Source of the DNA: Bacteroidota bacterium
Lineage (GTDB): Bacteria; Bacteroidota; Bacteroidia; Bacteroidales; JAAUTT01
NCBI GenBank assembly: GCA_030706405.1
Contig: JAUZOO010000001.1
Coordinates: 515,762 to 579,761, forward strand
DNA length: 64,000 bases
Direction of reading: 5' to 3'
Shown here one piece after another: positions 15,144-41,612 of the stretch. The position numbers and the translations under genes were made by a program. A model generated the notes under the pieces. The model saw only the letters and a program-made list of their open reading frames with translations. It searched no databases and was not told the DNA's origin. Numbering within the stretch: position 1 is the stretch's first letter; every line of letters starts with the position of its first letter.

Positions 15144-17156
15144 ATGGATATTTCACAATTTAAAGACCGATTCATAGCCGAAGCTTTTGATTTGACCGAA
15201 AATCTTGAGCGAGATCTGCTTGCGCTGGAAACCGATCCTACGAACTCTGAACTTATTGAACAGGTATTTCGGGTAATGCATACGCTTAAAGGCGTAAGCA
15301 GTATGTATGGTTTCGATAAAATCAGCGAGATAACGCATAACCTGGAACATATTTACGACTTGGTTCGCGATGGCAAGATGGCTGTTACAACGCCTGTTCT
15401 CGATCTAACACTGATCACCCGCGACCATATCCGAAACCTGCTCCAGGACGAACGCTTCGAAAATCCTGAAAATATTGAACGTCAGCATAAGCTTCAAAGT
15501 TCAATAGACCAGCTTCTAGTAGGAAATTCCAATGCCCTGAAAATTGAGAAACCTTTACGCAAGAAAAAAGCAAAGGCTCAACAGTTAGCCACTTTTAACA
15601 TTCTTTTTTATCCCAATGAGGAGCTTATTTTCCGTTGTATTAATATTCTTGCTACGTTGCGCGATTTGCTTGCACTTGGTGAATATCATATTGAACAACC
15701 TGCAAGTGACAATAACCATGAAAGCTGGAGCATATTTCTGGTAACATCAAAATCTATAAACGATATTGAAGATGCCATTATGTTCGTAAGCGACAATTTC
15801 AAAGTCAGAAAGATTGCCGATATCAATATTTTTAATACCAAGGAAATTGACGAACGTGAGAAAGAATATGAGGCAGAAGAGTCCCCAGCCGTACAGCCTA
15901 TAATGGTTTCAGACACGGAAATTGAATATTCTTCGGCAAGTTCTGTAAATAATGAAAGTGTCCAGAGCGCTCCCGAATTAAACCGTCTTTCAGTCGATAT
16001 TACAAAACTCGACCGACTGATGTATCTGGTAAGCGAACTGATAACGGCTAATTCGCAGCTAACCCTTGCAACCAAGGAAAAGAGCTACAATCCTATCCGC
16101 AAGTATGTCGAAAAAATAGATAACCTATCGAAACAATTCAGGGCTAATGCTTTCGATATTAGGCTCGTTCCTATTGGGGATATGGTGGTACGTTTTAAAC
16201 GGTTGGTGCGCGACCTCTCTAAACAGCTAAATAAGGAAGTTGATTTTGTTACGCAGGGTACTGATATTGAATTGGATAAAAATACGGTCGATAAATTATC
16301 CGAACCGCTCATCCATATTATCCGGAATTGTATTGACCATGGGATTGAACCCGCCGATGTACGCCTGGAACGAGGCAAGAAACCTGTCGGGAAGTTAAAA
16401 CTTACATCATATAGTTCAGGAAATTATGTGTTTGTAGAAATACAAGATGATGGCAATGGGCTGAATCTGGAAAAGTTACGCAACAAGGCAATTGAAAAAG
16501 GATTGATTGCTGCTGATAAACCTCTATCCGACAAAGAAATTATTGACCTGATATTCGTACCCGGGTTTTCGACAGCAAATAGCCTGAGCGAAATATCAGG
16601 GCGCGGTGTGGGTATGAACATTGTAAAAAAACGTATTGAAGACATGCGTGGTGAAATTGATATTGCCACCGAACCCGGCTTTGGCACCACTTTTACTATA
16701 AAATTACAGCAGAGCGTTGCCATTCTCGATACCATGCTCATTAAAGTTGAAAACCAATATTGCCTGGTACCTCTCGAAGACATTGAAACCTGCTCGCAGA
16801 TGGTTGTTTCTTCGTTGAACGAGCGCTCTTTCAGTCATACCCTGGAATATGACAATGAGCTTATACCGTTTGTTGATCTGCGTAAATTGTTTGATTTACA
16901 AACTGAACATCCTGACAAATTGCGAACCTTAGTTCTGAAAAAGAACGACCAGCGTTTTGCCGTTATTGCCGATGGTATTGTAGGCGAACATCAAGCCGTT
17001 GTAAAACCCATGGGAAAATTGCTTGCCGGGCACCGCTATGCTGCCGGGATGAGCATTCTGGGCGAAGGAAGCCTGGCCATGATTCTCGATACCAATCATC
17101 TTCAACAAATAGCTATCCACAATAAAACTCCCGAATATGGAAACTCAACAATCTAA
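15144..17156 (+). CDS. cheA: Chemotaxis histidine kinase CheA
   Basis: 670 residues. An N-terminal Hpt (P1) domain has the phospho-acceptor His46 in VMHTLKGVSSMYG. A poorly conserved middle region (about 140-280) stands in place of a standard CheY-binding P2. Then follow the P3 dimerisation helices (LNRLSVDITKLDRLMYLVSELI), the P4 ATPase (IRNCIDHGIEPADVR, DDGNGL, GRGVGMNIVKKRIE) and a C-terminal CheW-like P5 domain. All catalytic boxes are present, so the kinase should be active. cheW starts inside its last 20 bases and an MCP gene follows. No cheY, cheB or cheR is in the window. The unusual middle region may mean an unusual receiver partner. Confidence 0.95.
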   Translation: MDISQFKDRFIAEAFDLTENLERDLLALETDPTNSELIEQVFRVMHTLKGVSSMYGFDKISEITHNLEHIYDLVRDGKMAVTTPVLDLTLITRDHIRNLLQDERFENPENIERQHKLQSSIDQLLVGNSNALKIEKPLRKKKAKAQQLATFNILFYPNEELIFRCINILATLRDLLALGEYHIEQPASDNNHESWSIFLVTSKSINDIEDAIMFVSDNFKVRKIADINIFNTKEIDEREKEYEAEESPAVQPIMVSDTEIEYSSASSVNNESVQSAPELNRLSVDITKLDRLMYLVSELITANSQLTLATKEKSYNPIRKYVEKIDNLSKQFRANAFDIRLVPIGDMVVRFKRLVRDLSKQLNKEVDFVTQGTDIELDKNTVDKLSEPLIHIIRNCIDHGIEPADVRLERGKKPVGKLKLTSYSSGNYVFVEIQDDGNGLNLEKLRNKAIEKGLIAADKPLSDKEIIDLIFVPGFSTANSLSEISGRGVGMNIVKKRIEDMRGEIDIATEPGFGTTFTIKLQQSVAILDTMLIKVENQYCLVPLEDIETCSQMVVSSLNERSFSHTLEYDNELIPFVDLRKLFDLQTEHPDKLRTLVLKKNDQRFAVIADGIVGEHQAVVKPMGKLLAGHRYAAGMSILGEGSLAMILDTNHLQQIAIHNKTPEYGNSTI

Positions 17157-24541: not shown

Positions 24542-25387
24542 ATGCAGGTAATTAACTATATCTCAGAATTAAAATCTATTGTTGGAGAATACCGGAAACA
24601 AAACAAAACAATTGGTTTTGTTCCAACGATGGGAGCCCTTCACGAAGGCCATCTTTCTTTAGTATCTTTCTCAAAAGAAAATACCGATATTACTGTGGTA
24701 AGTATTTTTGTTAATCCTACACAGTTTAACGATAAAAACGATTTAAAAAATTACCCGCGTACGCTGGATGCCGACCTCGAAAAATTAGCATCGAAAGCGG
24801 TGGATATTGTTTTTGCCCCAAGCGAATCGGAGATGTATCCAGAGCCGGATACTCGTATTTTTGACTTCGGAAATCTCGATAAAGTGATGGAAGGTGCTCA
24901 TCGTCCCGGTCATTTTAATGGGGTGGCACAGGTTGTAAGTAAACTTTTTAGTGCTGTAGAACCCGATAAAGCCTTTTTTGGCGACAAAGATTTTCAACAG
25001 GTTGCGGTAATTAAACAAATGGTACGCCAGTTAAACCTTCCGGTAGCGATTGTTCCCTGCCCCATTGTTCGCGAGGCTGACGGATTAGCTATGAGTTCCC
25101 GGAATACGCTGCTCTCACCTGTTCAACGACAACATGCCGTTTTAATCTCAAAAACGCTTTTTGAAAGTCGCGAAATGGCTAAAACCATGGATGTCAAAGA
25201 GCTTAAGGCTTGGGTTGTTGCAAACATCAATAAGGATCCAGAGCTCGAAGTTGAGTATTTCGAAATTGTTGACGACACCGATTTAATATCTGCAAAATCG
25301 TGGAGCGAACCTAATAAAAAGGTTGGCTGTATTACGGTGAAGGTCGGAAACGTTAGACTTATCGACAATATCCGGTATAATTCGTAA
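24542..25387 (+). CDS. panC: Pantothenate synthetase
   Basis: 281 residues. [13 protein letters not shown] holds the class I nucleotidyltransferase HxGH (His34, His37), with FVNPTQF, a pantoate-binding FGDKDFQQ, and the KMSKS-like [10 protein letters not shown]. It joins pantoate and beta-alanine using ATP to give pantothenate for CoA. The product of the next gene, panD, supplies beta-alanine, so substrate supply and use are in one operon. It is divergent from the GT5-like gene. Confidence 0.97.
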
Positions 25388-25459
25388 ATTTGCAGTATAA
25401 TTATAAGTAGGTATCTTTCGGATTAAAATCCTGATAAAGATAATTTTAAACATCAACGA

Positions 25460-25810
25460 ATGAATATTGAAATTTTAAAATCAAAGATTCACAGGGTCAC
25501 CGTTACCGAGGCAAACCTAAACTACGTTGGCAGTATCACCATCGACGAAGACCTTATGGATGCCGCTAATATTATTGAGTTTGAAAAGGTACAGGTGGTC
25601 ATCATCAATAACGGTGAGCGTTTGGAAACTTATGTCATTAAAGGAGAAAGAGGTTCGGGCGTTATTTGTTTGAATGGTCCGGCTGCCCGTAAAGTTGTAG
25701 CCGGCGACTTGGCGATTATTATGTCATACGCTTCCATCGATTTTGAAGAAGCCAAAAGCTTTAAACCAACCGTCATTTTTCCCGACTCGGGCACCAACCG
25801 TCTAATCTGA
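25460..25810 (+). CDS. panD: Aspartate 1-decarboxylase proenzyme
   Basis: 116 residues. The self-processing site is Gly24-Ser25 ([10 protein letters not shown]); cleavage turns Ser25 into the pyruvoyl cofactor that decarboxylates aspartate to beta-alanine. [10 protein letters not shown] and the [12 protein letters not shown] loop are also conserved. Length is normal for the family (about 116-126). It follows panC by 72 bases and is closed by a hairpin. Confidence 0.97.
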
Positions 25811-25834
25811 TTTATTCATCAGCTTATACCTCTG

Positions 25835-25886
25835 AAAGGTTTGAATATTACGGAACGGTAACATTCAAACCTTTTAACTTTTTACA
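25835..25886 (+). terminator. Hairpin terminator after panD
   Basis: A perfect 12-bp stem (AAAGGTTTGAAT at 25835-25846 with ATTCAAACCTTT at 25863-25874), a 16-base loop, then a T-rich but interrupted tail. Confidence 0.65.
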
Positions 25887-25920
25887 AAATATCGTATATT
25901 GACAAAAAAATTTAAACGCT

Positions 25921-26412
25921 ATGGATTATTTAAATTTTATTCAGTCAAAGATTGTGTTCGACCGTTCTGAACTTGATAATATGTTAGCCATCTGGAGGTT
26001 TAAAGACCAGAAAATTGTTTTTACCAACGGATGTTTTGATATTATCCACCGCGGACATGTAGAGTACCTGGCTCAGGCAGCTTCGTTGGGAACTCAGTTG
26101 ATTATCGGCTTAAATACCGATGCTTCGGTAAAACGTCTTAAAGGAACTGCTCGCCCTGTACAGGACGAAAACACGCGTGCTATGGTGCTGGCTGCTTTCG
26201 GATTTGTATCGAGAGTGGTACTGTTTGAAGAGGACACCCCGCTGGAACTCATAAAGCAGGTTCAGCCTGACATCCTTGTTAAAGGAGGGGATTACCAGAC
26301 GGAAGACATCGTTGGATACGATATTGTAAAAGCCAAAGGAGGCGAAATCGTTACTATTGATTTGGTAAAAGGCTATTCGACCACCAACATCATCAATAAA
26401 ATGAGCCTGTAA
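25921..26412 (+). CDS. rfaE2: D-glycero-beta-D-manno-heptose 1-phosphate adenylyltransferase
   Basis: 163 residues, a single cytidylyltransferase-fold domain: VFTNGCFDIIHRGHVEYL carries the HxGH motif, with LNTDASVKRLKG and a C-terminal KGYSTTNIINKM that corresponds to the ISTTKIIxK signature. It equals the C-terminal half of E. coli HldE and makes ADP-heptose for LPS inner core; the separate kinase half (RfaE1) is not in the window. radA begins 4 bases downstream, so the pair is likely an operon. Confidence 0.92.
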   Translation: MDYLNFIQSKIVFDRSELDNMLAIWRFKDQKIVFTNGCFDIIHRGHVEYLAQAASLGTQLIIGLNTDASVKRLKGTARPVQDENTRAMVLAAFGFVSRVVLFEEDTPLELIKQVQPDILVKGGDYQTEDIVGYDIVKAKGGEIVTIDLVKGYSTTNIINKMSL

Positions 26413-26416
26413 GCTC

Positions 26417-27775
26417 ATGGTCAAAGAAAAAACAGTATATACCTGTCAGAACTGTGGGGCCGAATCGGCCAAATGGCTTGGGCGTTGTCCGTCCTGCGGT
26501 TCGTGGAATACGTTTGTAGAAGAAATCGTCCGAAATACTTCGAACAAATCCATATTACCCACTCCCAAAGGGCTTGCCAAGCCCGTAAGCCTCAGGGAAG
26601 TGTCTTCTTCCAAAGACCACCGGATTGACACCCGGATTGGAGAGTTAAACCGCGTACTCGGCGGTGGGTTGGTAAAAGGCTCGTTGATACTTCTAGGCGG
26701 AGAACCCGGTATTGGAAAATCAACACTTGCCCTGCAGTTTGCCCTTCACCTTACCGAATCTAAAGTCCTTTATATCTCTGGAGAAGAAAGCCTTCAGCAG
26801 ATAAAACTTCGTGCCGAACGCATTAATCCCGGAATGGGCAACTGCCTTTTCGCCAACGAAACATCGCTCGAAAATATCCTTAGCCATCTACAAAGCATTC
26901 AGCCCGACGTGGTGGTTATTGATTCCATACAGACCATTGCTGCCGAAAGTCTTGAATCTGCAACCGGCAGTGTATCGCAAGTCCGTGAGTGTACCTCGGC
27001 TTTGCTGAAATACGCTAAAAGCTCCCAAACCACCATCATTCTGATCGGACATATTACTAAAGAAGGATACCTTGCCGGTCCCAAAGCTTTGGAACATATT
27101 GTTGATGTGGTTTTACAGTTTGAAGGAGACAACAATCATATATATCGTATTTTACGCTCAAACAAAAATCGTTTCGGTTCTACTTCAGAAATCGGAATTT
27201 TTGAGATGCGCAACGAAGGTTTGCGGGAAATCACCAACCCGTCCGAAATACTTATCTCTTCGAACGAAGAGCAATTGAGCGGCATCAGCATTGCAGCCAC
27301 GCTCGATGGTATTCGTCCTTTTCTTATTGAAGTGCAGTCGCTTGTAAGCTCGGCAGCATACGGTACCCCACAACGGTCGTCGACCGGGTTTGATACGCGG
27401 CGGTTAAACATGCTTCTGGCTGTGCTCGAAAAACGGGCCGGATTTAAACTTGCAACCAAGGATGTATTTTTAAACATTACCGGAGGAATTAAAATAGATG
27501 ATCCTGCTATTGACCTGGCAGTCATCACGTCCATTCTTTCGTCGAACCTCGATATGTACATCAATCATCAATGCAGCTTTGCCGGTGAAGTTGGCCTCTC
27601 TGGCGAAATAAGACCAGTGAGCCGTATTGAGCAACGTATTAAAGAAGCCGAGAAACTTGGTTTCAAAAAGATATACATCGCCAAAGGAAATACCGTAGGA
27701 CTTTCTTCTAAATTTAAAATAGAAATAGCCCCCATCGGAAAAGTCGAACACCTTTTTAACAGCTTATTTAGATAA
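26417..27775 (+). CDS. radA: DNA repair protein RadA
   Basis: 452 residues. An N-terminal C4 zinc finger uses Cys10, Cys13, Cys24 and Cys27 (TCQNCG...GRCPSCGSW). A RecA-like ATPase follows with Walker A GGEPGIGKST near residue 95, the RadA-specific KNRFGS (NKNRFGSTSEIG), and a C-terminal Lon-protease-like domain (LNITGGIKIDDPAIDLAV, GEVGLSGEIRPV). It acts as a branch-migration helicase in homologous recombination. All diagnostic motifs are intact. It follows rfaE2 by 4 bases; the rest of the neighbourhood is unrelated. Confidence 0.97.
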   Translation: MVKEKTVYTCQNCGAESAKWLGRCPSCGSWNTFVEEIVRNTSNKSILPTPKGLAKPVSLREVSSSKDHRIDTRIGELNRVLGGGLVKGSLILLGGEPGIGKSTLALQFALHLTESKVLYISGEESLQQIKLRAERINPGMGNCLFANETSLENILSHLQSIQPDVVVIDSIQTIAAESLESATGSVSQVRECTSALLKYAKSSQTTIILIGHITKEGYLAGPKALEHIVDVVLQFEGDNNHIYRILRSNKNRFGSTSEIGIFEMRNEGLREITNPSEILISSNEEQLSGISIAATLDGIRPFLIEVQSLVSSAAYGTPQRSSTGFDTRRLNMLLAVLEKRAGFKLATKDVFLNITGGIKIDDPAIDLAVITSILSSNLDMYINHQCSFAGEVGLSGEIRPVSRIEQRIKEAEKLGFKKIYIAKGNTVGLSSKFKIEIAPIGKVEHLFNSLFR

Positions 27776-32066: not shown

Positions 32067-34421
32067 ATGGTTGAAAATCTGGTTATTGTTGAGTCCCCCG
32101 CAAAAGCTTCCACAATAGAGAAGTTTTTGGGAAAGAATTATCTGGTTAAATCAAGCTTTGGTCATATCAGGGATCTTGAAAAAAAGAACCTTGGAATTGA
32201 CGTAAAGAACGATTATACGCCTCAGTACATTGTTCCTGAGGATAAAAAAAAATTAGTTGCCGAATTAAAGAAGCTCGCCAAGGACGCTCAGACGGTCTGG
32301 CTCGCTTCCGATGAAGACCGCGAAGGAGAAGCAATTTCTTGGCATTTATTCGAAGTACTCGGGCTTAAACCTGAAAAAACGAAACGTATCGTTTTTAACG
32401 AAATTACCAAGGAAGCAATCCTGCGGGCAATCGAAAATCCCCGTACCATTGATAATAACCTGGTAAACGCCCAACAGGCGCGCCGGGTTCTTGATCGTCT
32501 GGTAGGTTTCGAAATATCTCCCATCCTCTGGAGAAAAGTTAAACCGGCATTATCTGCCGGACGTGTACAATCCGTTGCAGTGCGGCTCATCGTGGAACGC
32601 GAGCGCGAAATACATGCTTTTAAAACATCTTCGGCTTTTAAGGTAACTGCAAACTTTCAGCTTACCGATCCGAAAAAGGCAACCTTGTATGCTGAGTTGG
32701 ACAATAAGATTAACAACCGCGACAACACGCTCGAATTTCTGAAGAAATGTCAAAATGCGGAGTTTCGTGTAGCCGATGTGGTTACCAAACCGTCTAAAAA
32801 ATCGCCGGCCCCACCATTTACAACGTCTACACTTCAGCAGGAAGCCAGCCGGAAACTGGGATTCTCGGTATCCCAAACTATGACCCTCGCTCAAAAGTTG
32901 TACGAAGCCGGACGTATCACCTATATGCGTACCGACTCTGTGAATCTTTCAGAAACGGCCATTAACATGGCTAAAGAAGTTATTACAAAAGATTACGGAG
33001 AAAAATATTCTAATCCGCGACAATACAAGACCAAGTCGAAAGGCGCGCAGGAAGCGCATGAGGCCATCCGTCCTTCCTATCTCGACCAAATTGATATTCC
33101 AGGGTCAACAGCAGAAAAAAGGCTTTACGACCTTATCCGTAAGCGCACCATTGCGTCGCAAATGAGCGATGCAGCCCTCGAAAAAACAACGGCAACTATT
33201 GACATTTCTACTACTTCTGAAAAATTTATGGCCTCGGGCGAAGTATTGAAATTCGAAGGCTTTCTGAAAGTTTATATCGAATCAACCGACGATGAAAACG
33301 AAGAAAACTCCGAACGTCTTCTTCCTCCTTTAAATAAAGGACAAGTTTTAGCTCTCGATTTCATTAAGGCTACCGAACGTTTTACACACCATGCGCCGCG
33401 TTATACGGAAGCCAGCTTGGTTAAAAAGCTCGAAGAATTAGGCATTGGTCGTCCGTCAACCTATGCACCAACTATTTCAACTATTCAGCAACGCGGATAT
33501 GTTGTGAAGGAAGACCGCGAAGGTGACGAGCGTCAATATTTAGGAATTACCCTGAAAAACAAACAGATATCTGAACAAACGCTAAAAGAGATAACCGGAG
33601 CCGAAAAGGCAAAACTTTTTCCCAGTGACATCGGAACTATTGTTAACGACTTTTTAATCAATCATTTTAACGATATTCTCGATTTTAATTTTACGGCTAA
33701 TGTCGAAAAGGAATTCGACGAGATTGCTACAGGTCACCTCGGCTGGACAAAGATGATCGATAAGTTTTATAGCCCGTTTCATAAAAAGGTTGAAATTACT
33801 ACCGAGACTTCCGAGCGTAGTATAGGAGAGAAAATTTTAGGCACCGATCCCGCGTCAGGTAAGCCCATCATGGTGAAAATAGGACGATTTGGTCCTATGG
33901 CACAGATTGGAGAAGCCACTGATGAAGAAAAGCCACGTTTTGCAGGCCTTTTGAAAGGACAATCCATCGAAACCATTACGCTTGAACAAGCACTCGACCT
34001 GTTTAAACTTCCCCGATTAGTTGGTTCATTTGAAGATAAAGAGGTAACTGCAGGAGTTGGCCGGTTTGGCCCGTACCTCAAACATGATGCGAAATTTTAT
34101 TCGCTCCGTCCCAAAGAAGACGATGCTCTTAGCATCAATATTGATCGAGCCATCGAAGTAATTACGATCAAAAGGATAGAACAGCAAAATAAAGTTTTAA
34201 AAACTTTTGCTGAAGATTCAGAACTACAAATTCTCAATGGTCGTTGGGGGGCGTATATCGTTTATAAAAAAGAAAATTATAAAATACCTAAAGGACAAAC
34301 TGCCGAAACGTTAACTTTTCAGGATTGCCAGGAAATAATAAAAAATGGCCCTGCAAAAGCCAAGGCAAAGCCTAAGGCTAAAGCTCCTGTCAAATCTGCA
34401 GCTAAAGGGAAAAAGAAATAA
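32067..34421 (+). CDS. topA: DNA topoisomerase I
   Basis: 784 residues. Toprim domain (VESPAKASTIEKFLG, ASDEDREGEAISWHL), the catalytic tyrosine in GRITYMRTDSVNLS, and LGIGRPSTYAPTISTI. In place of C-terminal zinc ribbons it has three Toprim_C-type repeats (GRFGPMAQIG, GRFGPYLKHD, GRWGAYIVYK) and a Lys/Ala/Pro-rich basic tail. The lack of Cys4 fingers fits Bacteroidota TopA. It relaxes negative supercoils. It lies 64 bases upstream of the arginase-fold gene and the T9SS operon, an order found in other Bacteroidota as far as I recall. Confidence 0.97.
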   Translation: MVENLVIVESPAKASTIEKFLGKNYLVKSSFGHIRDLEKKNLGIDVKNDYTPQYIVPEDKKKLVAELKKLAKDAQTVWLASDEDREGEAISWHLFEVLGLKPEKTKRIVFNEITKEAILRAIENPRTIDNNLVNAQQARRVLDRLVGFEISPILWRKVKPALSAGRVQSVAVRLIVEREREIHAFKTSSAFKVTANFQLTDPKKATLYAELDNKINNRDNTLEFLKKCQNAEFRVADVVTKPSKKSPAPPFTTSTLQQEASRKLGFSVSQTMTLAQKLYEAGRITYMRTDSVNLSETAINMAKEVITKDYGEKYSNPRQYKTKSKGAQEAHEAIRPSYLDQIDIPGSTAEKRLYDLIRKRTIASQMSDAALEKTTATIDISTTSEKFMASGEVLKFEGFLKVYIESTDDENEENSERLLPPLNKGQVLALDFIKATERFTHHAPRYTEASLVKKLEELGIGRPSTYAPTISTIQQRGYVVKEDREGDERQYLGITLKNKQISEQTLKEITGAEKAKLFPSDIGTIVNDFLINHFNDILDFNFTANVEKEFDEIATGHLGWTKMIDKFYSPFHKKVEITTETSERSIGEKILGTDPASGKPIMVKIGRFGPMAQIGEATDEEKPRFAGLLKGQSIETITLEQALDLFKLPRLVGSFEDKEVTAGVGRFGPYLKHDAKFYSLRPKEDDALSINIDRAIEVITIKRIEQQNKVLKTFAEDSELQILNGRWGAYIVYKKENYKIPKGQTAETLTFQDCQEIIKNGPAKAKAKPKAKAPVKSAAKGKKK

Positions 34422-34485: not shown

Positions 34486-35619
34486 ATGAATATTCACGAC
34501 TATTTGGAATCATTCGAAAAAAAGAACCCGTTTTCGGATAACCAATTCTTATCCAGACATATTTCTTTTTTACAGAAAGGGCAGGGAATTCCTAAAGATT
34601 CTTCTTTTAAGGTAGCGATTATAGGCGTGCCCGACGATAAGGAAGTGCATACCTTTGAATCTGCCCGGCAAATCCGTGAGAACCTTTACAATCTGGCCGC
34701 TTTAACTGCAAAGCTTACTATCATCGATCTGGGGAATATTAAAACCGGAAATTCATTTACAGATACCTGCTTTGCCCTGTGCGAAATTATTACGACTCTC
34801 AATGCTGACGGAACTCTTGTAGTTTTACTTGGAAGTTCGTCGGCCTTTAATATTGGTAACATTATGGCCTACAGGCAATCAGACTCTCTGATAAACATGG
34901 CCGTAATTGATTCTACGATAAGCAAAGAAGAAATTCCGCCGTTTGTTCTTACGAAAGACAATCTATTTCCCGGTACGGAAACTTTTAAGTTATTCAATTA
35001 TATTAATATAGCCTATCAGAGCTATTTTGTAGAACGAGAGACGCTTGATTTTATCGAAGACTCAAATTATGAAGCATATAGGGTAGGGTATGTCAGAGCC
35101 AATATTAAAGAAATGGAACCCGTTCTCCGGGATGCCGATCTGGTTTCGTTTAGCTTGAATTCACTTAAACATTCCGATGCTCCCGGAGTAAATCGAAGTT
35201 CACCCAATGGGTTGTCGAGCGAAGAAGCCTGTCAGCTTGCCTTTTATGCAGGACATAGCAACCGTGTGAAATCTTTTAATGTTTGGGATTTAGCTCCTGA
35301 TAAAGATATTCACCAAACCACCTCCAAACTTGCGGCTCAAATAATATGGTATTTTTTCGAAGGGTTGTCAAACGCTATACCCGAAGAACCTCAATCTAAT
35401 ACCGAGCACTTTATAAAATATCTTATTCATCTCAACCAAACCGACCAGGACATTGCCTTTTTCAAAAGCAACCTTACCAACCGATGGTGGATGGAGATAA
35501 CCTTGGCACAGTCCAACCAAAATATTACCTTATCTTGCTCTCCAAACGACTATGAACTAGCCTGTCAACAAGATATTCCCGATCGTTGGTGGCGCACCTT
35601 TCAACGCTTTTCTCATTGA
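34486..35619 (+). CDS. Arginase/formimidoylglutamase-fold protein, probably non-catalytic
   Basis: 377 residues. The layout follows ureohydrolases of the HutG-like type (VAIIGVPDDKEVHTFESARQIR, LVVLLGSSSAFNIGN, NMAVIDSTIS, VSFSLNSLKHSDAPG, then SPNGLSSEEACQLAFYAG). The metal ligands expected in active enzymes are missing: GGDH-S is replaced by GSSSAF, the D-A-H-x-D strand by DSTIS, and the late D-x-D by SFSLNS. It is therefore probably a pseudoenzyme. It sits between topA and porP-gldKLMN on the same strand. Bacteroidota homologues are often labelled formimidoylglutamase; no other histidine-degradation gene is here. A role linked to T9SS is inference from position only. Confidence 0.78.
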   Translation: MNIHDYLESFEKKNPFSDNQFLSRHISFLQKGQGIPKDSSFKVAIIGVPDDKEVHTFESARQIRENLYNLAALTAKLTIIDLGNIKTGNSFTDTCFALCEIITTLNADGTLVVLLGSSSAFNIGNIMAYRQSDSLINMAVIDSTISKEEIPPFVLTKDNLFPGTETFKLFNYINIAYQSYFVERETLDFIEDSNYEAYRVGYVRANIKEMEPVLRDADLVSFSLNSLKHSDAPGVNRSSPNGLSSEEACQLAFYAGHSNRVKSFNVWDLAPDKDIHQTTSKLAAQIIWYFFEGLSNAIPEEPQSNTEHFIKYLIHLNQTDQDIAFFKSNLTNRWWMEITLAQSNQNITLSCSPNDYELACQQDIPDRWWRTFQRFSH

Positions 35620-35715
35620 ATCAATAAATTTTGATAAATTGGGTGACGTCGGATAAAATAATTTTGAATATATACAGTTAAAGACTAAACACATATTACG
35701 TATAATAGGAGAGGT

Positions 35716-35745
35716 ATTGATAACAACAAAAAAATAATACATTTG
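35716..35745 (+). promoter_or_regulatory. Probable promoter of the porP-gldKLMN operon
   Basis: TACATTTG at 35738-35745 fits TAnnTTTG, and ATTG at 35716-35719 lies 18 bases upstream as a -33 element. The leader to the porP ATG is about 56 bases. This suggests porP-gldKLMN can be transcribed apart from topA and the arginase-fold gene. Confidence 0.5.
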
Positions 35746-35808: not shown

Positions 35809-36750
35809 ATGATTAGGCTTTTTCTAATTGTTCCCTTTGCAATGTTATTTGGTTCTGTTCTTGCCCAGCAAGACCCGATATGCAGCCAATATATGTTTAA
35901 CAACATGGCTATTAATCCGGGTTATGCAGGAAGTAAGGATCAAATAGCTATTTCCGCTATTCACCGGTTACAATGGGTTGGACAAGCCGGGGCTCCCACA
36001 ACTTCAACATTCTCAATTCATACCCCGTTTAAAATAGGCAAGGTCAATAATGGGATAGGTCTTACTTTTGTTAATGACAAGTACGCATTCGACAATAATA
36101 TAGGTATTAGCTTAGCATATGCATACCGAATGGACGTTAACGACGGGGCCGGAAAATTAGGTATTGGCGTTAGTGGAGGGTTTATTAATAACTCGTTAAA
36201 TGCTACATGGATTACAACGGGAAATGCAACGCCTGCGGCTAACGACCCAACAATTCCAAATCAAACTGAATCCACAACAACGCTAAATTTTGATTTAGGC
36301 CTATATTACCAAACCGACAAATTATACTTTGGTATTTCTTCAACCAACCTTACCCAGCCTAAAAAAAATTATTCTAAAGGAAGCCCTTTAATTAATCGTC
36401 ATTATTATCTTACGTCGGGGTACAATTTACCTTTAGCAAATCCCGCGTTTGAGATTCAGCCATCTGTATTTCTGGCTACTGATGGTGCTTCGTCTTCGCT
36501 AGATCTAAATACTGTAGTTACCTACAATAAACGTGTCTGGGGCGGTTTTTCGTACAGGCTGTCGGCTGCTGTTGTAGGAATGGTAGGGTTGGAACTGATA
36601 AACGGATTGCGGATAGGTTATGCCTATGATTTTTCGACAACAAACTTAAACAAATACAATAATGGTACCCATGAAATCATGATGGGGTATAATTTTAGCA
36701 TCGTAAAACCCAAAGTACCACATAGGTATAAAAGTGTTCGATTTTTATAA
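35809..36750 (+). CDS. porP: Type IX secretion outer-membrane protein PorP/SprF family
   Basis: 313 residues with a signal peptide (MIRLFLIVPFAMLFGSVLA) and the family start QQDPICSQYMFNNMAINPGYAGS. The body is barrel-like and it ends with HEIMMGYNFSIVKPK. Placement directly upstream of gldK-gldL-gldM-gldN matches the porP-porK-porL-porM-porN order of Porphyromonas, so it is the core PorP rather than a cargo-specific SprF. It is related to, but clearly different from, the paralogue at 7944-8885. It is needed for T9SS function at the outer membrane; PorP binding to the cell surface through PorE is known in Porphyromonas, and no PorE gene is seen here. Confidence 0.92.
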   Translation: MIRLFLIVPFAMLFGSVLAQQDPICSQYMFNNMAINPGYAGSKDQIAISAIHRLQWVGQAGAPTTSTFSIHTPFKIGKVNNGIGLTFVNDKYAFDNNIGISLAYAYRMDVNDGAGKLGIGVSGGFINNSLNATWITTGNATPAANDPTIPNQTESTTTLNFDLGLYYQTDKLYFGISSTNLTQPKKNYSKGSPLINRHYYLTSGYNLPLANPAFEIQPSVFLATDGASSSLDLNTVVTYNKRVWGGFSYRLSAAVVGMVGLELINGLRIGYAYDFSTTNLNKYNNGTHEIMMGYNFSIVKPKVPHRYKSVRFL

Positions 36751-36832: not shown

Positions 36833-38173
36833 ATGAAAAAAATACTGGTAATTGGTATTGTATTCGCCCTTCTTACCGGAAGTTGCGGAAAAACCAGTAA
36901 CGGAGAATTGACCGGTGTCCCCGGCAGACCGAGTTATACTGAACCAGACCCGTATGGAATGGTTTTTATCCCGCAGGGAAGCTTTACGATGGGGCCAACA
37001 GATCAGGATGCATCCTGGGCACAAAACAATGCGGCAAAAACCGTCTCTTTGGAGCCATTTTGGATGGATGATACTGAAATCACCAATAATGAATACCGCC
37101 AGTTCGTCTACTGGGTTCGGGATTCTCTTGTAAGAAGAAAATTGGGAGAACAGGATCCTGACACTTATCTGATAACCGAGGATGAAAATAACAATCCTAT
37201 AGATCCACCTGCAATTAACTGGGGAGCTAAGATTGATACCAGAGACCCGGATGTTGAGCAGAGCTTGGAAGATTTCTATCTTAAAAAGGAAGAGCGCTTC
37301 TTTGGAAGAAAAGAATTTGATACTCGTAAACTTAAATATGAATATTTTTGGGTAGACCTGCAACAAGCTGCAAAAAAATCAAACCGATACCAGTTTGATA
37401 AACAACGATATGAAGGGTTGGTTACCAATAGCGATGGAGAACAGGTTACTATTAAAGACAGAAGCTCATTTATATTGAATGATAATGTTTATGTTTATCC
37501 CGATACTCTTTGTTGGGTAGCTGACTTTACTTATTCGTATAACGAACCAATGACCAATTTATATTTCTGGCATCCCGGCTATGATAACTATCCGGTTGTA
37601 GGTGTGAACTGGAAACAGGCTACTGCATTTTGTATATGGAGAACTCAATTGTTAAACTCTTTTCTTTCGAGATACGGAGAGCCTTCCGTTCAGGATTATC
37701 AGTTACCTACTGAAGCTCAGTGGGAATATGCAGCTCGTGGAGGTTTAGCACATGCAATGTATCCTTGGGGTGGGGTTTATACAACTAATAAGTCGGGTTG
37801 TTATTTAGCTAATTTTAAACCATTAAGGGGTAACTATGCAGCCGATGGAGGTATTAAGGTCTTAAAAGTGGCTTCTTACGAGCCTAATGAGTGGGGGCTG
37901 TATGATATGGCTGGTAACGTTGCCGAATGGTGTTCCAGTGCATTCGATGAGTCTTCAGGTTTTTTTACTCATGATTTGGATCCGGACTATAAATATAATG
38001 CTCACAAGAATGATCAGGCAGCGATGAAACGGAAAGTTGTCAAAGGTGGATCTTGGAAAGATATTGCCTATTACTTACAGGCTGGTACCCGTACTTATGA
38101 ATATCAGGATACAGCCAGATCGTATATCGGATTCCGTTGTATTCGTCCTTATGTAGGTAACTATACTAAATAA
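36833..38173 (+). CDS. gldK: T9SS ring lipoprotein GldK/PorK
   Basis: 446 residues. Lipoprotein signal (LLTGSCGK) followed by a formylglycine-generating-enzyme-like fold: GMVFIPQGSFTMGPTD, MDDTEITNNEYRQF, GVNWKQATAFCIWR, LPTEAQWEYAARGG, GNVAEWCSSAFD and FRCIRPY. Active FGE cysteines are not expected in this family; GldK is structural and with GldN forms the periplasmic ring under the outer membrane. It opens the tight gldK-L-M-N series, 82 bases after porP. Confidence 0.96.
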   Translation: MKKILVIGIVFALLTGSCGKTSNGELTGVPGRPSYTEPDPYGMVFIPQGSFTMGPTDQDASWAQNNAAKTVSLEPFWMDDTEITNNEYRQFVYWVRDSLVRRKLGEQDPDTYLITEDENNNPIDPPAINWGAKIDTRDPDVEQSLEDFYLKKEERFFGRKEFDTRKLKYEYFWVDLQQAAKKSNRYQFDKQRYEGLVTNSDGEQVTIKDRSSFILNDNVYVYPDTLCWVADFTYSYNEPMTNLYFWHPGYDNYPVVGVNWKQATAFCIWRTQLLNSFLSRYGEPSVQDYQLPTEAQWEYAARGGLAHAMYPWGGVYTTNKSGCYLANFKPLRGNYAADGGIKVLKVASYEPNEWGLYDMAGNVAEWCSSAFDESSGFFTHDLDPDYKYNAHKNDQAAMKRKVVKGGSWKDIAYYLQAGTRTYEYQDTARSYIGFRCIRPYVGNYTK

Positions 38174-38196: not shown

Positions 38197-39072
38197 ATGA
38201 ACCTTAGTGAAATAGTTCAAAGTTCTCGTTGGAAAAACTTCATGGCCAAATTGTATGGTTGGGGAGCTTCGTTGGTGATTTTAGGAGCTTTGTTTAAAAT
38301 TAACCACTATAAAGGTGCTGGAACGATGCTTTTAGTGGGTATGGGAACAGAAGCTATTATCTTTTTCTTTTCTGCTTTTGAACCTTTGCATGAAGAACTT
38401 GACTGGACGTTGGTTTACCCTGAATTGGCTGGAATGGCTGACCCTGACGAATTGGGAACTGCTAAAGATGCTGACCGAAAAAGTCATGGTTCACTGGATA
38501 AATTTGATGGTTTGGCAAAAGAAGCAGATCTTAGTCCTGAAGTCTTCAAAAAATTAGAAGAATCATTACAAAAGTTGAGTACGACGACGTCTAATCTGTC
38601 TGATATTACTGATGCAACCGTAGCGACTAATCAATATACAGCTAACATTAAAAATGCTGCGGCATCGGCAGGTTCTTTGTCCAATACCTTTAACCAATCT
38701 GCAGCATCATTGCAGGATTCGGTAAATACTTTAACAGTTTCTTACGCCAGTCTTAGTGAAACTGTTAAAAATGAACTTCCTGTCATTTCAGAAGGAGCTA
38801 AAAATTACAATGCCCAATTAGAGGGCATGAACAAGAACCTTAATGCCTTAAATGCTGTATATGAATTGCAATTACGTGATTCATCGGTACATCTGAAAGA
38901 ATCTCAGGCTCTTTATGGTGGGTTAAATAACCTCATAGAAAACTTGAAAAATTCAGCTGAGGAAACTCAAAAATACAAAGACGAAATTTCTCAATTAAGT
39001 AAAAATCTTTCATCGCTTAACAACATATATGGTAATATGTTATCTGCAATGAATGGCTCTGTTAAAAAATAG
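38197..39072 (+). CDS. gldL: T9SS motor protein GldL/PorL
   Basis: 291 residues. Two closely spaced TM helices (about 22-36 and 43-60) sit at the N-terminus and the rest is cytoplasmic coiled coil. Glu52 in GMGTEAIIFFFSAFEP corresponds by alignment with what I recall of Flavobacterium GldL to the membrane Glu49 essential for proton-driven rotation. EELDWTLVYPELAG is a family signature. GldL pentamers surround two GldM helices in the inner membrane. Confidence 0.96.
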   Translation: MNLSEIVQSSRWKNFMAKLYGWGASLVILGALFKINHYKGAGTMLLVGMGTEAIIFFFSAFEPLHEELDWTLVYPELAGMADPDELGTAKDADRKSHGSLDKFDGLAKEADLSPEVFKKLEESLQKLSTTTSNLSDITDATVATNQYTANIKNAAASAGSLSNTFNQSAASLQDSVNTLTVSYASLSETVKNELPVISEGAKNYNAQLEGMNKNLNALNAVYELQLRDSSVHLKESQALYGGLNNLIENLKNSAEETQKYKDEISQLSKNLSSLNNIYGNMLSAMNGSVKK

Positions 39073-39084
39073 TAACCTGTAGTT

Positions 39085-40704
39085 ATGGCTCACGGAAAAG
39101 AGACACCAAGGCAAAAAATGATTGGGATGATGTATTTGGTGCTTACAGCAATGTTGGCGCTGAATGTATCAAAGGATATTCTGGATGCCTTTGTGCTTGT
39201 AGATGATGGCTTAACAAAGACAACCGAGAATTTTAGCGCGAAAAATCAGTTGATATATAATGAATTCGGAAAACTTGCAGTTACTAATCCTCAAAAGGTA
39301 AAAGAATGGAAGGATAAGGCCGATAAAGTTCAACATAAAGCCAATGAACTTTATGATTATATACAGTCTCTGAAAGTCAGGATAATTAAAGAGGCTGATG
39401 ACAAAACTGAAGCTCTTTCAAAAAACAAGATTGACGCAAAAAAAATTCAGACGAAGGATGACACAAATATTCCGGCACGAATAATGGTCGGGGCTGATAA
39501 TAATCAGGAAGGGAAAAAATTACACAAAAAAATTAATGAATACAGAGAACTCTTATTGTCATTGGTAGATAAAAGAGAAGACGGGATCATTAATTCTGTT
39601 AAAAAGACTTTGGATACATCTGATCCTCCTCTGAAAGAAGGAGGCGAGAAGGCAACCTGGGAATCTGAGAATTTTGAACATCTCCCTTTAATTGCGGTTA
39701 CAACACTGATGTCGAAAATGCAAAGTGATGTTAGAAATGCCGAGGCTGATGTTATTCAATATTTATATAATAAAATAGAAGGCAGTTCGTTCAAATTTAA
39801 CAAATTAGAAGCAACTGTAACTGTAAATTCAAATTATATACTAAAGGGAGGGGAATATAGCGCCGAAGTATTTATTGCGGCTACTGATACCACCCAGAGA
39901 CCCGATGTATATATTGGGAACTGTCAGGCATTTCGTACTGCCGACGGGAAGACCGATTATAAAATAGTTGGAGCATCTCAAAAATTACCCATTGGGCCTA
40001 ACGGAAAAAGTATTTTTAAACGGACGGGAACAGCTGTAGGAAATTTTCCATGGAGTGGAATGATTGAGTTAAAACAGACAGATGGAACCATGGTTAGAAA
40101 ACCATTTAAGATGGAATACCAAGTAGGAGAAGCGACTGCAGTTGTATCGCCTACTAAAATGAATGTATTTTATGTTGGGGTTGACAATCCGGTGTCTATT
40201 TCTGTAGCAGGGGTTCCTTCAGAAAAAATAAAAGCAGACATTTCCAACGGAGAAATCAAGAAAGTTGGCAATGGTTATATAGTAAGACCGCGTAGCCCGG
40301 GTAATGCTCTGATAACTGTCAGAGCCGAAATTGAGGGCAAAGTCAAGGAAATGGGGATTATGGAATTCCGTGTAAAAAATTTGCCTGATCCTGTAGCCAA
40401 GGTTGCTGCAAGAAAGGGTGGATATATTGACAAAAATACGTTAATAGCGCAGGCTATTGTTCAGGCTGATCTTGAAAATTTTGAGTTTGATGCAAGATAC
40501 ACTGTTACTGAATTTAGCGTATCTGCAGTAATTAAAGGATTTGCCCAGGAAGAGGCTTCTAAATCAAGTCAGATAACTTCTGCACAGAAGGATATTATCA
40601 GGACTTTATCTAAGGGAAATCGAGTTACTTTTCAGGATATTAAAGCCGTTGGTCCGGATGGAAAGACTCGGGAATTAAATCCTGTCCAATTTAAAATACA
40701 ATAA
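39085..40704 (+). CDS. gldM: T9SS motor shaft protein GldM/PorM
   Basis: 539 residues. A short cytoplasmic start carries Arg9 (GKETPRQKMIG), the residue that pairs with the GldL glutamate in the known motor structure; one TM follows (MYLVLTAMLALNVS) and then a long periplasmic rod of four domains. It transmits torque from the inner-membrane motor to the GldK/GldN ring. The start is 12 bases after gldL. Length agrees with family members (about 510-540). Confidence 0.96.
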   Translation: MAHGKETPRQKMIGMMYLVLTAMLALNVSKDILDAFVLVDDGLTKTTENFSAKNQLIYNEFGKLAVTNPQKVKEWKDKADKVQHKANELYDYIQSLKVRIIKEADDKTEALSKNKIDAKKIQTKDDTNIPARIMVGADNNQEGKKLHKKINEYRELLLSLVDKREDGIINSVKKTLDTSDPPLKEGGEKATWESENFEHLPLIAVTTLMSKMQSDVRNAEADVIQYLYNKIEGSSFKFNKLEATVTVNSNYILKGGEYSAEVFIAATDTTQRPDVYIGNCQAFRTADGKTDYKIVGASQKLPIGPNGKSIFKRTGTAVGNFPWSGMIELKQTDGTMVRKPFKMEYQVGEATAVVSPTKMNVFYVGVDNPVSISVAGVPSEKIKADISNGEIKKVGNGYIVRPRSPGNALITVRAEIEGKVKEMGIMEFRVKNLPDPVAKVAARKGGYIDKNTLIAQAIVQADLENFEFDARYTVTEFSVSAVIKGFAQEEASKSSQITSAQKDIIRTLSKGNRVTFQDIKAVGPDGKTRELNPVQFKIQ

Positions 40705-40724: not shown

Positions 40725-41612
40725 ATGCGAACCTATTCTTCAATAACGATTGCTTTGTTTATAGTTGTTTTTTCGTTTAGCGGAACAACTTTTGCTCAAA
40801 CAGATTCAATTAGAGATTCTAAAGAAGAAGTATATAAGAAGATTCATATACCGGATAAAAAACCTATTCCTTATCCATATACCCGCGAAGCCGATGTAAT
40901 GTGGTCTAAAATAGTTTGGAGAATGGTTGATCTTAGAGAAAAAATGAACTTTCCTCTTTATTTTCCGACTAGGCCTATCGGGGATCGTATGAATCTTATT
41001 CAGCTTATTTTTAAAGGAATTGACGAAGGCAAAATTCAGGTGTATAATCCTGACAAAGGGGATGATGAATTTAAGTTCCCTATGACTAAAGAGGGGCTTG
41101 ACCGGAAAATGGGGAATGTCCCTCATGCAGTGCCTGTTCCTCAGGCCGATGGAACCGTTAAGATGGATACTGTGCCTGGAGAGAGACGTTACACAGAGAT
41201 TAAAAAAGTCCTTCTTAAAGAAAAATGGTTTTTTGACAGCCGCTATTCCAAAATGGAAGTCCGTATTCTTGGTATATGTCCAATCAGGCTTGCTCCTAAA
41301 GAGATTAAAGGAACGATAGCCACTGGGGATAGTGCAGAAATTGAGCAAAGAAAAGTATGTTGGGTTTACTATCCGGAATCAAGGGACTTATTCTCAACAC
41401 ATCCTATTTATAATGCGCGAAACGATGCGCAACAGACATCATTTGATGATTTCTTTATGCAACGTCGTTTCAATAGCTATATTTATGCTACATCCAACGT
41501 TTATAATAATCGTACAATCGATGAATATACAACAGGTATGGAAAGCCTATTGGAAGCTGATCGTATCAAAAATTCTCTAGTTAACGACGAACAGGATTTT
41601 TGGGAATATTAA
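40725..41612 (+). CDS. gldN: T9SS ring protein GldN/PorN
   Basis: 295 residues with a signal peptide (ITIALFIVVFSFSGTTFAQ) and the conserved segments IWRMVDLREKMNFPLYFP, MNLIQLIFKGIDEGKIQVY and a C-terminal QDFWEY. It binds GldK to form the periplasmic ring and contacts the distal end of GldM. It is the last gene of the operon, 20 bases after gldM, and a strong terminator follows. Confidence 0.95.
   Translation: MRTYSSITIALFIVVFSFSGTTFAQTDSIRDSKEEVYKKIHIPDKKPIPYPYTREADVMWSKIVWRMVDLREKMNFPLYFPTRPIGDRMNLIQLIFKGIDEGKIQVYNPDKGDDEFKFPMTKEGLDRKMGNVPHAVPVPQADGTVKMDTVPGERRYTEIKKVLLKEKWFFDSRYSKMEVRILGICPIRLAPKEIKGTIATGDSAEIEQRKVCWVYYPESRDLFSTHPIYNARNDAQQTSFDDFFMQRRFNSYIYATSNVYNNRTIDEYTTGMESLLEADRIKNSLVNDEQDFWEY

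Follow-up and report, generated by a model that had tools for sequence, protein, structure and literature searches.

Ureohydrolase-fold proteins without a complete metal centre have been described. MetCb is a metal-free pseudoenzyme subunit of metformin hydrolase and the partner of the active MetCa, and the same paper also mentions other non-canonical arginases that lack a binuclear centre and whose function is elusive (PMC11271267). On the side of the T9SS, PorX is a cytoplasmic regulator that binds the cytoplasmic domain of GldL (PMC10951265).

Here we report on pArg, a ureohydrolase-fold pseudoenzyme encoded in a 64,000-nucleotide stretch of DNA (the window; positions without a locus prefix refer to it). 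Formiminoglutamases and the agmatine ureohydrolase 3pzl are among its closest solved relatives by sequence. The likeness to formiminoglutamase (HutG) is one of fold over pArg residues 18-298 (Z 32.3 for 4myl, Z 30.8 for the B. subtilis structure 3m1r); unlike HutG, pArg has no full binuclear site, carries an extra C-terminal domain, lies on a separate side of the family tree and comes from a genome without HutH. With MetCb (PMC11271267) it would share a ureohydrolase fold that holds no metal and serves for binding, and the metformin hydrolase chains share their fold with the pArg model. Unlike MetCb, pArg has a C-terminal domain of its own, a class-wide distribution and no active partner candidate in the window genome; a heteromer of the MetCb type with an active ureohydrolase was rejected because pArg is the only PF00491 match (E ≤ 0.1) in that genome. 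The non-canonical arginases mentioned in the same source resemble pArg by description only, as arginase folds without a binuclear centre. PorX, whose CheY-like, HBD and PglZ domains (PMC10951265) are unrelated to the architecture of pArg, would be a fitting comparison only if pArg likewise worked on the T9SS motor from the cytoplasm.

The pArg gene is followed by a set of T9SS genes on the same strand:

32067..34421, + strand, topA, DNA topoisomerase I, the tightest conserved neighbour of pArg (TIGR01051, 688.9 bits)
34486..35619, + strand, pArg, ureohydrolase-fold pseudoenzyme, ATG start, 377 aa plus stop, full length
35809..36750, + strand, porP/sprF-family T9SS membrane protein (TIGR03519, 271.9 bits)
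36833..38173, + strand, gldK/porK (TIGR03525, 585.8 bits)
38197..39072, + strand, gldL/porL (TIGR03513, 205.4 bits)
39085..40704, + strand, gldM/porM (TIGR03517, 405 bits)
40725..41612, + strand, gldN/porN (TIGR03523, 204.3 bits)

The first-pass annotation of this DNA had described a full-length gene between topA and porP-gldKLMN with a clear arginase-family fold, and the 377-aa ORF, the family models for its neighbours and the structural comparisons bear this out. The strand opposite the ORF contains many stops in the single frame translated. PF00491 (Arginase) was the sole Pfam family on pArg (E = 1.5e-12). An AlphaFold model made with a 95-sequence family alignment (pLDDT 91.7, pTM 0.92) had the T. 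cruzi formiminoglutamase 4myl as its top solved structure in VIA-align (rmsd 2.0, 259 aligned residues, 21% identity). By the Pfam match and the predicted model, pArg has the arginase fold of the ureohydrolase (arginase) superfamily. Plasmid and PHROGs searches gave no match. Neither a signal peptide nor a membrane segment was evident by eye or from hydropathy (peak 1.55, with an N-terminus that is not signal-like), which makes the cytoplasm the probable location of the protein. Within the gene we distinguish the following parts:

34606..35379, + strand, ureohydrolase-like core, residues 41-298, from VIA-align to 4myl
34828..34851, + strand, degenerate metal motif 1, LGSSSAFN (GG[SG][QH]D in the family, GGGHD in active enzymes)
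34909..34923, + strand, degenerate metal motif 2, DSTIS (DAHxD in active enzymes), with the first Asp alone kept
35146..35163, + strand, degenerate metal motif 3, SFSLNS (SxDxD in active enzymes)
35380..35616, + strand, family-private C-terminal domain, residues 299-377 (~80 aa), four strands and two helices

Ligand positions were assigned by aligning the family profile with solved structures, using rat arginase numbering and an MnA/MnB assignment that we take to be correct. The equivalents in the window protein are S119 for H101, D142 for D124, T144 for H126, S146 for D128, S223 for D232 and N225 for D234. Five of the six first-shell ligands of the binuclear site are thus replaced, among them two of the three MnA-side Asp residues, and D142 is the sole survivor; the earlier claim that the ligands had been replaced was right except at this position. 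Intact ligands at shifted positions were rejected, since profile alignment to the solved formiminoglutamases leads to the motifs GSSSAF, DSTIS and SFSLNS. The first ligand position is Asn in the solved formiminoglutamase-family structures 2a0m/4mxr and 3m1r, so His is not obligatory at that position alone.

Motifs were tabulated for 140 rows, the window and 139 other loci (134 distinct sequences, not thinned), with 14 further pArg copies outside the table. The second Asp of SxDxD (D234 equivalent) was present in none of the 140 rows and the His of DxHxD (H126 equivalent) in six. The MnA-side Asp trio was present in 138 (D124 equivalent), 131 (D128 equivalent) and 135 (D232 equivalent) rows, and these column counts together indicate that the site has lost its MnB half and largely retained its MnA half. 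Such retention of the trio suggests that the pocket may still be functional, perhaps in chemistry. D120 of GG.QD was found in 137 rows, and the first ligand was Gln in 118, His in 17, Asn in 4 and Ser in 1. Counted by row, four of the six ligands were kept in 21 cases, three in 109, two in 7, one in 2 and none in 1; four was also the highest count among the 14 further copies. By the aligned sequences, loss of metal ligands is a trait of the whole pArg family, and it is uneven among members.

Same-genus relative L142 (52% identity) has the identical five losses and keeps one ligand, and L143 (39% identity), of the same genus, keeps two (D142 and H144). The f5 and f7 copies, like those of the window's genus, have lost more of the pocket. 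In the Sphingobacteriaceae-like copies L144-L146 the one ligand kept is an Asp at the D234 column, where the 140 rows have none; truncated L147 has Asp at the D232 and D234 columns and lacks the first two motifs, so that all four copies with an Asp at D234 hold at most two of the six ligands. Chitinophagaceae-like copies L147:4954-5784, L148:4652-5656 and L149:4996-5829 (277, 335 and 278 aa, convergent with MurF-GldJ) have the first two metal motifs empty and the C-terminal domain kept. These two family labels, and the label Flavobacteriaceae-like, were given by inference. At the 52 most conserved positions of the family, window pArg differs at seven: 52, 195 and 265, and a further four (117, 120, 126 and 223) that belong to the metal motifs or adjoin them. 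Against residues present in at least 85% of rows there are 15 departures, five in or near the motifs and ten elsewhere.

The C-terminal domain is well conserved. F325, W334, C351 and A359 are invariant, W335, Y356 and P365 are nearly so, and window pArg is unchanged at all ten of the most conserved positions of the domain, which is present once in its own genome. Among 19 genomes without pArg there was no credible match to the domain (two weak ones, E 0.03-0.06). The core was matched in 44 genomes of other classes; in all of these except G009, where it reached residue 332, the alignment went no further than residue 311, and the domain was absent from the six other-class core-matching proteins that were read. 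Pfam searches with four sequences of the domain reached E = 0.0089 at best, below the cut-off, and a profile search of the PDB reached E = 0.057. The best Foldseek match was an AP2 DNA-binding repeat (6sy0, E = 0.42) and the best in VIA-align was 2aca (Z 5.0, rmsd 3.2, 63 aligned), with Z 3.9-4.1 for integrase arm-binding domains. The domain thus has no secure fold match, the sheet-helix similarities to AP2, to integrase arm-binding domains and to the 2aca-like fold of a putative adenylate cyclase being weak and below significance.

A quick, unrooted tree of the core in 68 chosen rows, made without bootstrap, placed 62 pArg rows and six HutG-like rows on opposite sides of one branch (SH-aLRT 99); L148, L150 and L151 are on long branches in this tree and the placement of L144-L146 is unsupported. 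The median dN/dS in close family pairs was 0.056 and the highest value 0.128 (41 pairs with dS 0.1-2, none of which includes window pArg, whose dS is saturated). Judged by these codon comparisons, the pArg family is under purifying selection.

Matches to the pArg profile were found in 279 of 296 Bacteroidia genomes that were at least 95% complete, and matches to GldM in 289 (the class, order and phylum samples share genomes). The initial description of a conserved dead enzyme therefore fits, with ligand loss family-wide, and pArg is a class-wide pseudoenzyme family in Bacteroidia with its own domain. All but five of the class matches (274 of 279) were below 1e-40; four of the weaker ones (G037, G064, G158 and G162) include the C-terminal domain, and the fifth, G532, scored 6.6e-22. 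Cross-counting the class gave 277 genomes with both proteins, 12 with GldM and no pArg match, two with pArg and no GldM match, and five with neither. In the order sample GldM was present in 200 of 218 genomes. There were 165 pArg matches in this sample, 152 of them clear copies (E < 1e-40) and 13 weaker; 150 of the clear copies were in GldM-positive genomes, leaving 50 of the 200 GldM-positive genomes without one. GldD and SprA are both present in the two genomes with a clear copy and no GldM match (G308 and G424), which makes an incomplete assembly the probable reason for the missing GldM.

Fourteen genomes of the order have neither GldM nor GldD; none has a clear pArg and one (G351) has a weak match. 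These are not clear independent co-losses, because the GldM-positive members of their families either have no clear pArg or are unsampled. G381, without GldM and pArg, is the exception to that family pattern; the two genes are present and linked in its congener G268, so the absence is probably an assembly gap. No clear independent co-loss of pArg and GldM was found in the class and order samples. Co-occurrence was significant by Fisher's test in values uncorrected for kinship (p = 6.6e-6 for the class, 1.1e-7 for the order). Given the lack of a clear independent co-loss and the presence of two counter-examples, we set plain co-occurrence aside as proof of a T9SS function. One counter-example, G634 (99% complete, ~30 contigs), keeps an intact 394-aa pArg (locus L192) with neither GldM nor SprA matched; the other, G506 (95% complete), has a pArg match and no GldM or SprA match, and its congeners are GldM-positive. 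Thus pArg does not behave as a component present with the T9SS and absent without it: 12 of 289 GldM-positive genomes have no match and two of seven GldM-negative genomes have one. GldD, present in 184 of the 218 order genomes, was tried as a gliding marker and rejected, as it did not separate the groups and also occurs in pArg-negative, GldM-positive genomes (among them G248, G305 and G350).

Several genomes in these samples are of interest in their own right. G002, a congener of G634, has GldM; the pair points to an apparent recent loss of the T9SS, and their comparison should be useful for finding T9SS-dependent genes. Three genomes of family f12 (G190, G653 and G694; 6.4-7.2 Mb) have GldM and SprA and no match to pArg or to its C-terminal domain, and pArg was apparently lost there in a T9SS-positive lineage. 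G508 (95% complete, ~300 contigs) has SprA and no GldM or pArg match, which would mean either an incomplete T9SS or a gap in the assembly. Two to five GldM matches per genome were obtained for many members of the class, and GldM-like genes are tandem or duplicated in G518 (contig C10:12135-13625 and 15618-17120) and G678 (contig C67:20597-22231 and 25293-26870).

In the window, topA and pArg are separated by 64 bp and pArg and porP by 189 bp. The median gap between adjacent same-strand topA and pArg genes was 24 bp (n = 59; 30 bp or less in 33) compared to 155.5 bp between pArg and porP or gldK (n = 34; 30 bp or less in none), values that may be underestimates since each ORF was extended to its furthest upstream start codon. 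With short gaps to topA and long gaps to the T9SS genes, pArg seems to stand second in a unit with topA, and in some lineages it looks as if a topA-pArg unit precedes the T9SS operon. The gene had been placed at the head of that operon; it does precede porP-gldKLMN, but, being nearer topA, it is not clearly the head. Of 94 loci with wider flanks, 61 had topA adjacent to pArg or close by, and in each of these the two genes shared a strand. In 60 further loci (flanks of ~1.5 kb), topA was found in 46 and gldK or porP in 30, and in the 30 of these that belong to the order, in 23 and 6, respectively; such counts are biased to close relatives because the loci are the best matches of similarity searches. 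topA was absent from the f3, f4, f10 and f11 loci inspected.

Linkage of pArg to gldM (one strand, within 10 kb) was found in 29 of the 58 genomes of the phylum sample that have both genes. All 26 f6 genomes were linked, as was one each in f1, f8 and f9, against none of 29 in f3, f4, f5, f7, f10 and f11. The expectation that such a gene lies near gldK in several Bacteroidota is therefore supported, with linked genomes in four of the ten families of this sample and none in the other six. On gene order and spacing, the adjacency to topA is tighter than that to the gld genes and, within the order, also wider. A different arrangement was seen in five loci (L037, L092 and L147-L149), where pArg is convergent with MurF-GldJ; a PorP/SprF gene is beside pArg in four of them and a sulfatase gene is interposed in L092. 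The GldJ of L147 scores 410 bits, below the cut-off of 458 and well above its GldK score of 237, and the call in the other four loci rests on clustering with the L147 member. These loci are possibly a second T9SS or gliding neighbourhood and an extra tie to the T9SS.

Two matches to a -33/-7 consensus, which we take to be that of Bacteroidota promoters, lie in the gap between pArg and porP:

35639..35666, + strand, candidate Bacteroidota -33/-7 promoter, a consensus match only
35717..35745, + strand, second candidate -33/-7 promoter, a consensus match only

Over the whole window the consensus gave 13 matches on the + strand and three on the - strand. In relatives it was found in two of 34 pArg-T9SS gaps and three of 59 topA-pArg gaps, and since it is rare in the gaps of other loci such matches decide nothing in general. 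Sigma-70-like sites in the window were at chance level (27 found, 29.7 expected). Terminator-like sites numbered 15 (9.3 expected); the + strand of the pArg-porP gap has none.

Our results bear directly on the name HutG. Window pArg scored 64.6 bits with the NCBIfam hutG model TIGR01227, for which the curated cut-off is 229.15, and no HutH was found in its genome at E ≤ 1e-10, so that this mark of a hut pathway is absent; on these two grounds a HutG identity was rejected for the window protein. HutH is present in 52 of the 58 pArg-positive genomes. In two f6 genomes (G130 and G182) a four-gene run led by hutH (L204:1493-7361 and L205:1414-7258) closes with a protein whose six ligands are complete (GGGHD; DAH.D; TIDLDG), and pArg lies by gldM. 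The six-ligand proteins, called HutG-like from place and motif in the two of 52 HutH-positive genomes whose runs were read, are useful active comparators. In HutH-positive G107, G118 and G049 the family profile has a single match, so that pArg may be the sole ureohydrolase-fold protein there.

Our preferred explanation, which we give a probability of about 0.55, is that pArg is a cytoplasmic, non-hydrolytic binding protein encoded in a topA-pArg unit. A formiminoglutamase-like ureohydrolase ancestor would have given rise to an old pArg of Bacteroidia, with loss of binuclear-metal hydrolysis and gain of the C-terminal sheet-helix domain. The protein would act by binding, as a scaffold or sensor, and its main contact surface would be the C-terminal domain, in which a Phe, a Trp, a Cys and an Ala are invariant. 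The old pocket, with three Asp in most members, may hold a small ligand or a single cation and would be dispensable in the window's genus. Expression would probably be shared with topA. The position before porP-gldKLMN would reflect an old conserved gene block, in which a T9SS role is possible and not obligatory. We infer the binding role from the loss of ligands, the constraint elsewhere and a C-terminal domain that outlives the first two motifs; the location and the co-expression with topA are inferred in the same way, from the hydropathy and the gene spacing given above.

The first-pass annotation had raised the possibility of an assembly or regulatory factor beside the secretion motor. A factor of this kind dedicated to the T9SS, for example a cytoplasmic scaffold on the GldL cytoplasmic domain that tunes assembly or rotation of the motor, is possible but less likely than our preferred explanation. 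The topA-pArg-(porP)-gldKLMN block, the gldM link seen in 29 of 58 genomes (26 of 26 in f6) and the GldJ-MurF neighbourhood in five loci give pArg more T9SS company than is expected of a neutral gene; a pArg match accompanies GldM in 277 of 289 class genomes, against two of seven without GldM, and PorX acting on the GldL cytoplasmic domain (PMC10951265) is a precedent. The other half of the 58 genomes is unlinked, however, topA is the tighter neighbour, a clear copy is missing in 50 of 200 GldM-positive genomes of the order and any match in 12 of 289 of the class, and G634 and G506 keep pArg without GldM or SprA. Neither has a clear independent co-loss been found, and the GldJ-side loci may go back to one relocation and are convergent, not co-operonic. 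The annotation had also held that such a gene has no known T9SS role. This agrees with a search of mainly open-access journal papers, in which we found no published link of an arginase-family protein to gldK or the T9SS; the words arginase, formimidoylglutamase and formiminoglutamase do not occur among the entries listed for T9SS papers, and no paper was found under Fjoh_1852 (a presumed locus tag). A bolder proposal, doubtful in our judgement, makes pArg a class-wide regulator in which the former formiminoglutamase pocket (three Asp and Gln) is a ligand sensor and the C-terminal domain signals to the T9SS or gliding motor or to the DNA beside topA.

An enzyme of altered chemistry, with the Asp trio and Gln or His of most members holding one metal (MnA-like) or none and with the window genus secondarily dead, is unlikely: retention of the D124, D128 and D232 equivalents (138, 131 and 135 of 140) and of D120 (137 of 140), and the Asn at the first ligand of 2a0m/4mxr and 3m1r, agree with it, but the two MnB-side ligands are essentially gone (0 and 6 of 140), and the window genus, f5 and f7 have shed more of the pocket while close pairs elsewhere in the family are constrained. 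It is very improbable that pArg is merely a divergent HutG of histidine degradation. Formiminoglutamases are among its best solved relatives, HutH accompanies it in 52 of 58 genomes and it may be the only ureohydrolase-fold protein in some of them; yet the hutG score of 64.6 bits against 229 and the lack of HutH in its own genome go with a degenerate metal site, and the hut runs of G130 and G182 end in a separate six-ligand protein. That the gene is a decaying pseudogene or an annotation artefact is scarcely credible, extreme as the ligand loss in the window copy is, for two relatives of the same genus (at 52% and 39% identity) have kept the ORF at full length, dN/dS in close pairs is ~0.06 and matches are present in 279 of 296 class genomes.

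To name pArg after its homologues, as HutG for instance, would probably be misleading. If the regulator proposal were true, metabolic state would set secretion or chromosome behaviour, and the window's genus would have retained the output domain while losing much of the sensor. A class-wide, constrained protein with a private domain, for which we found no published function, leaves a considerable gap in our picture of Bacteroidia, a major bacterial class. The family also offers a pseudoenzyme in natural stages of decay, from copies that keep the Asp trio, through those in which the pocket is mostly gone, to those without the first two motifs.
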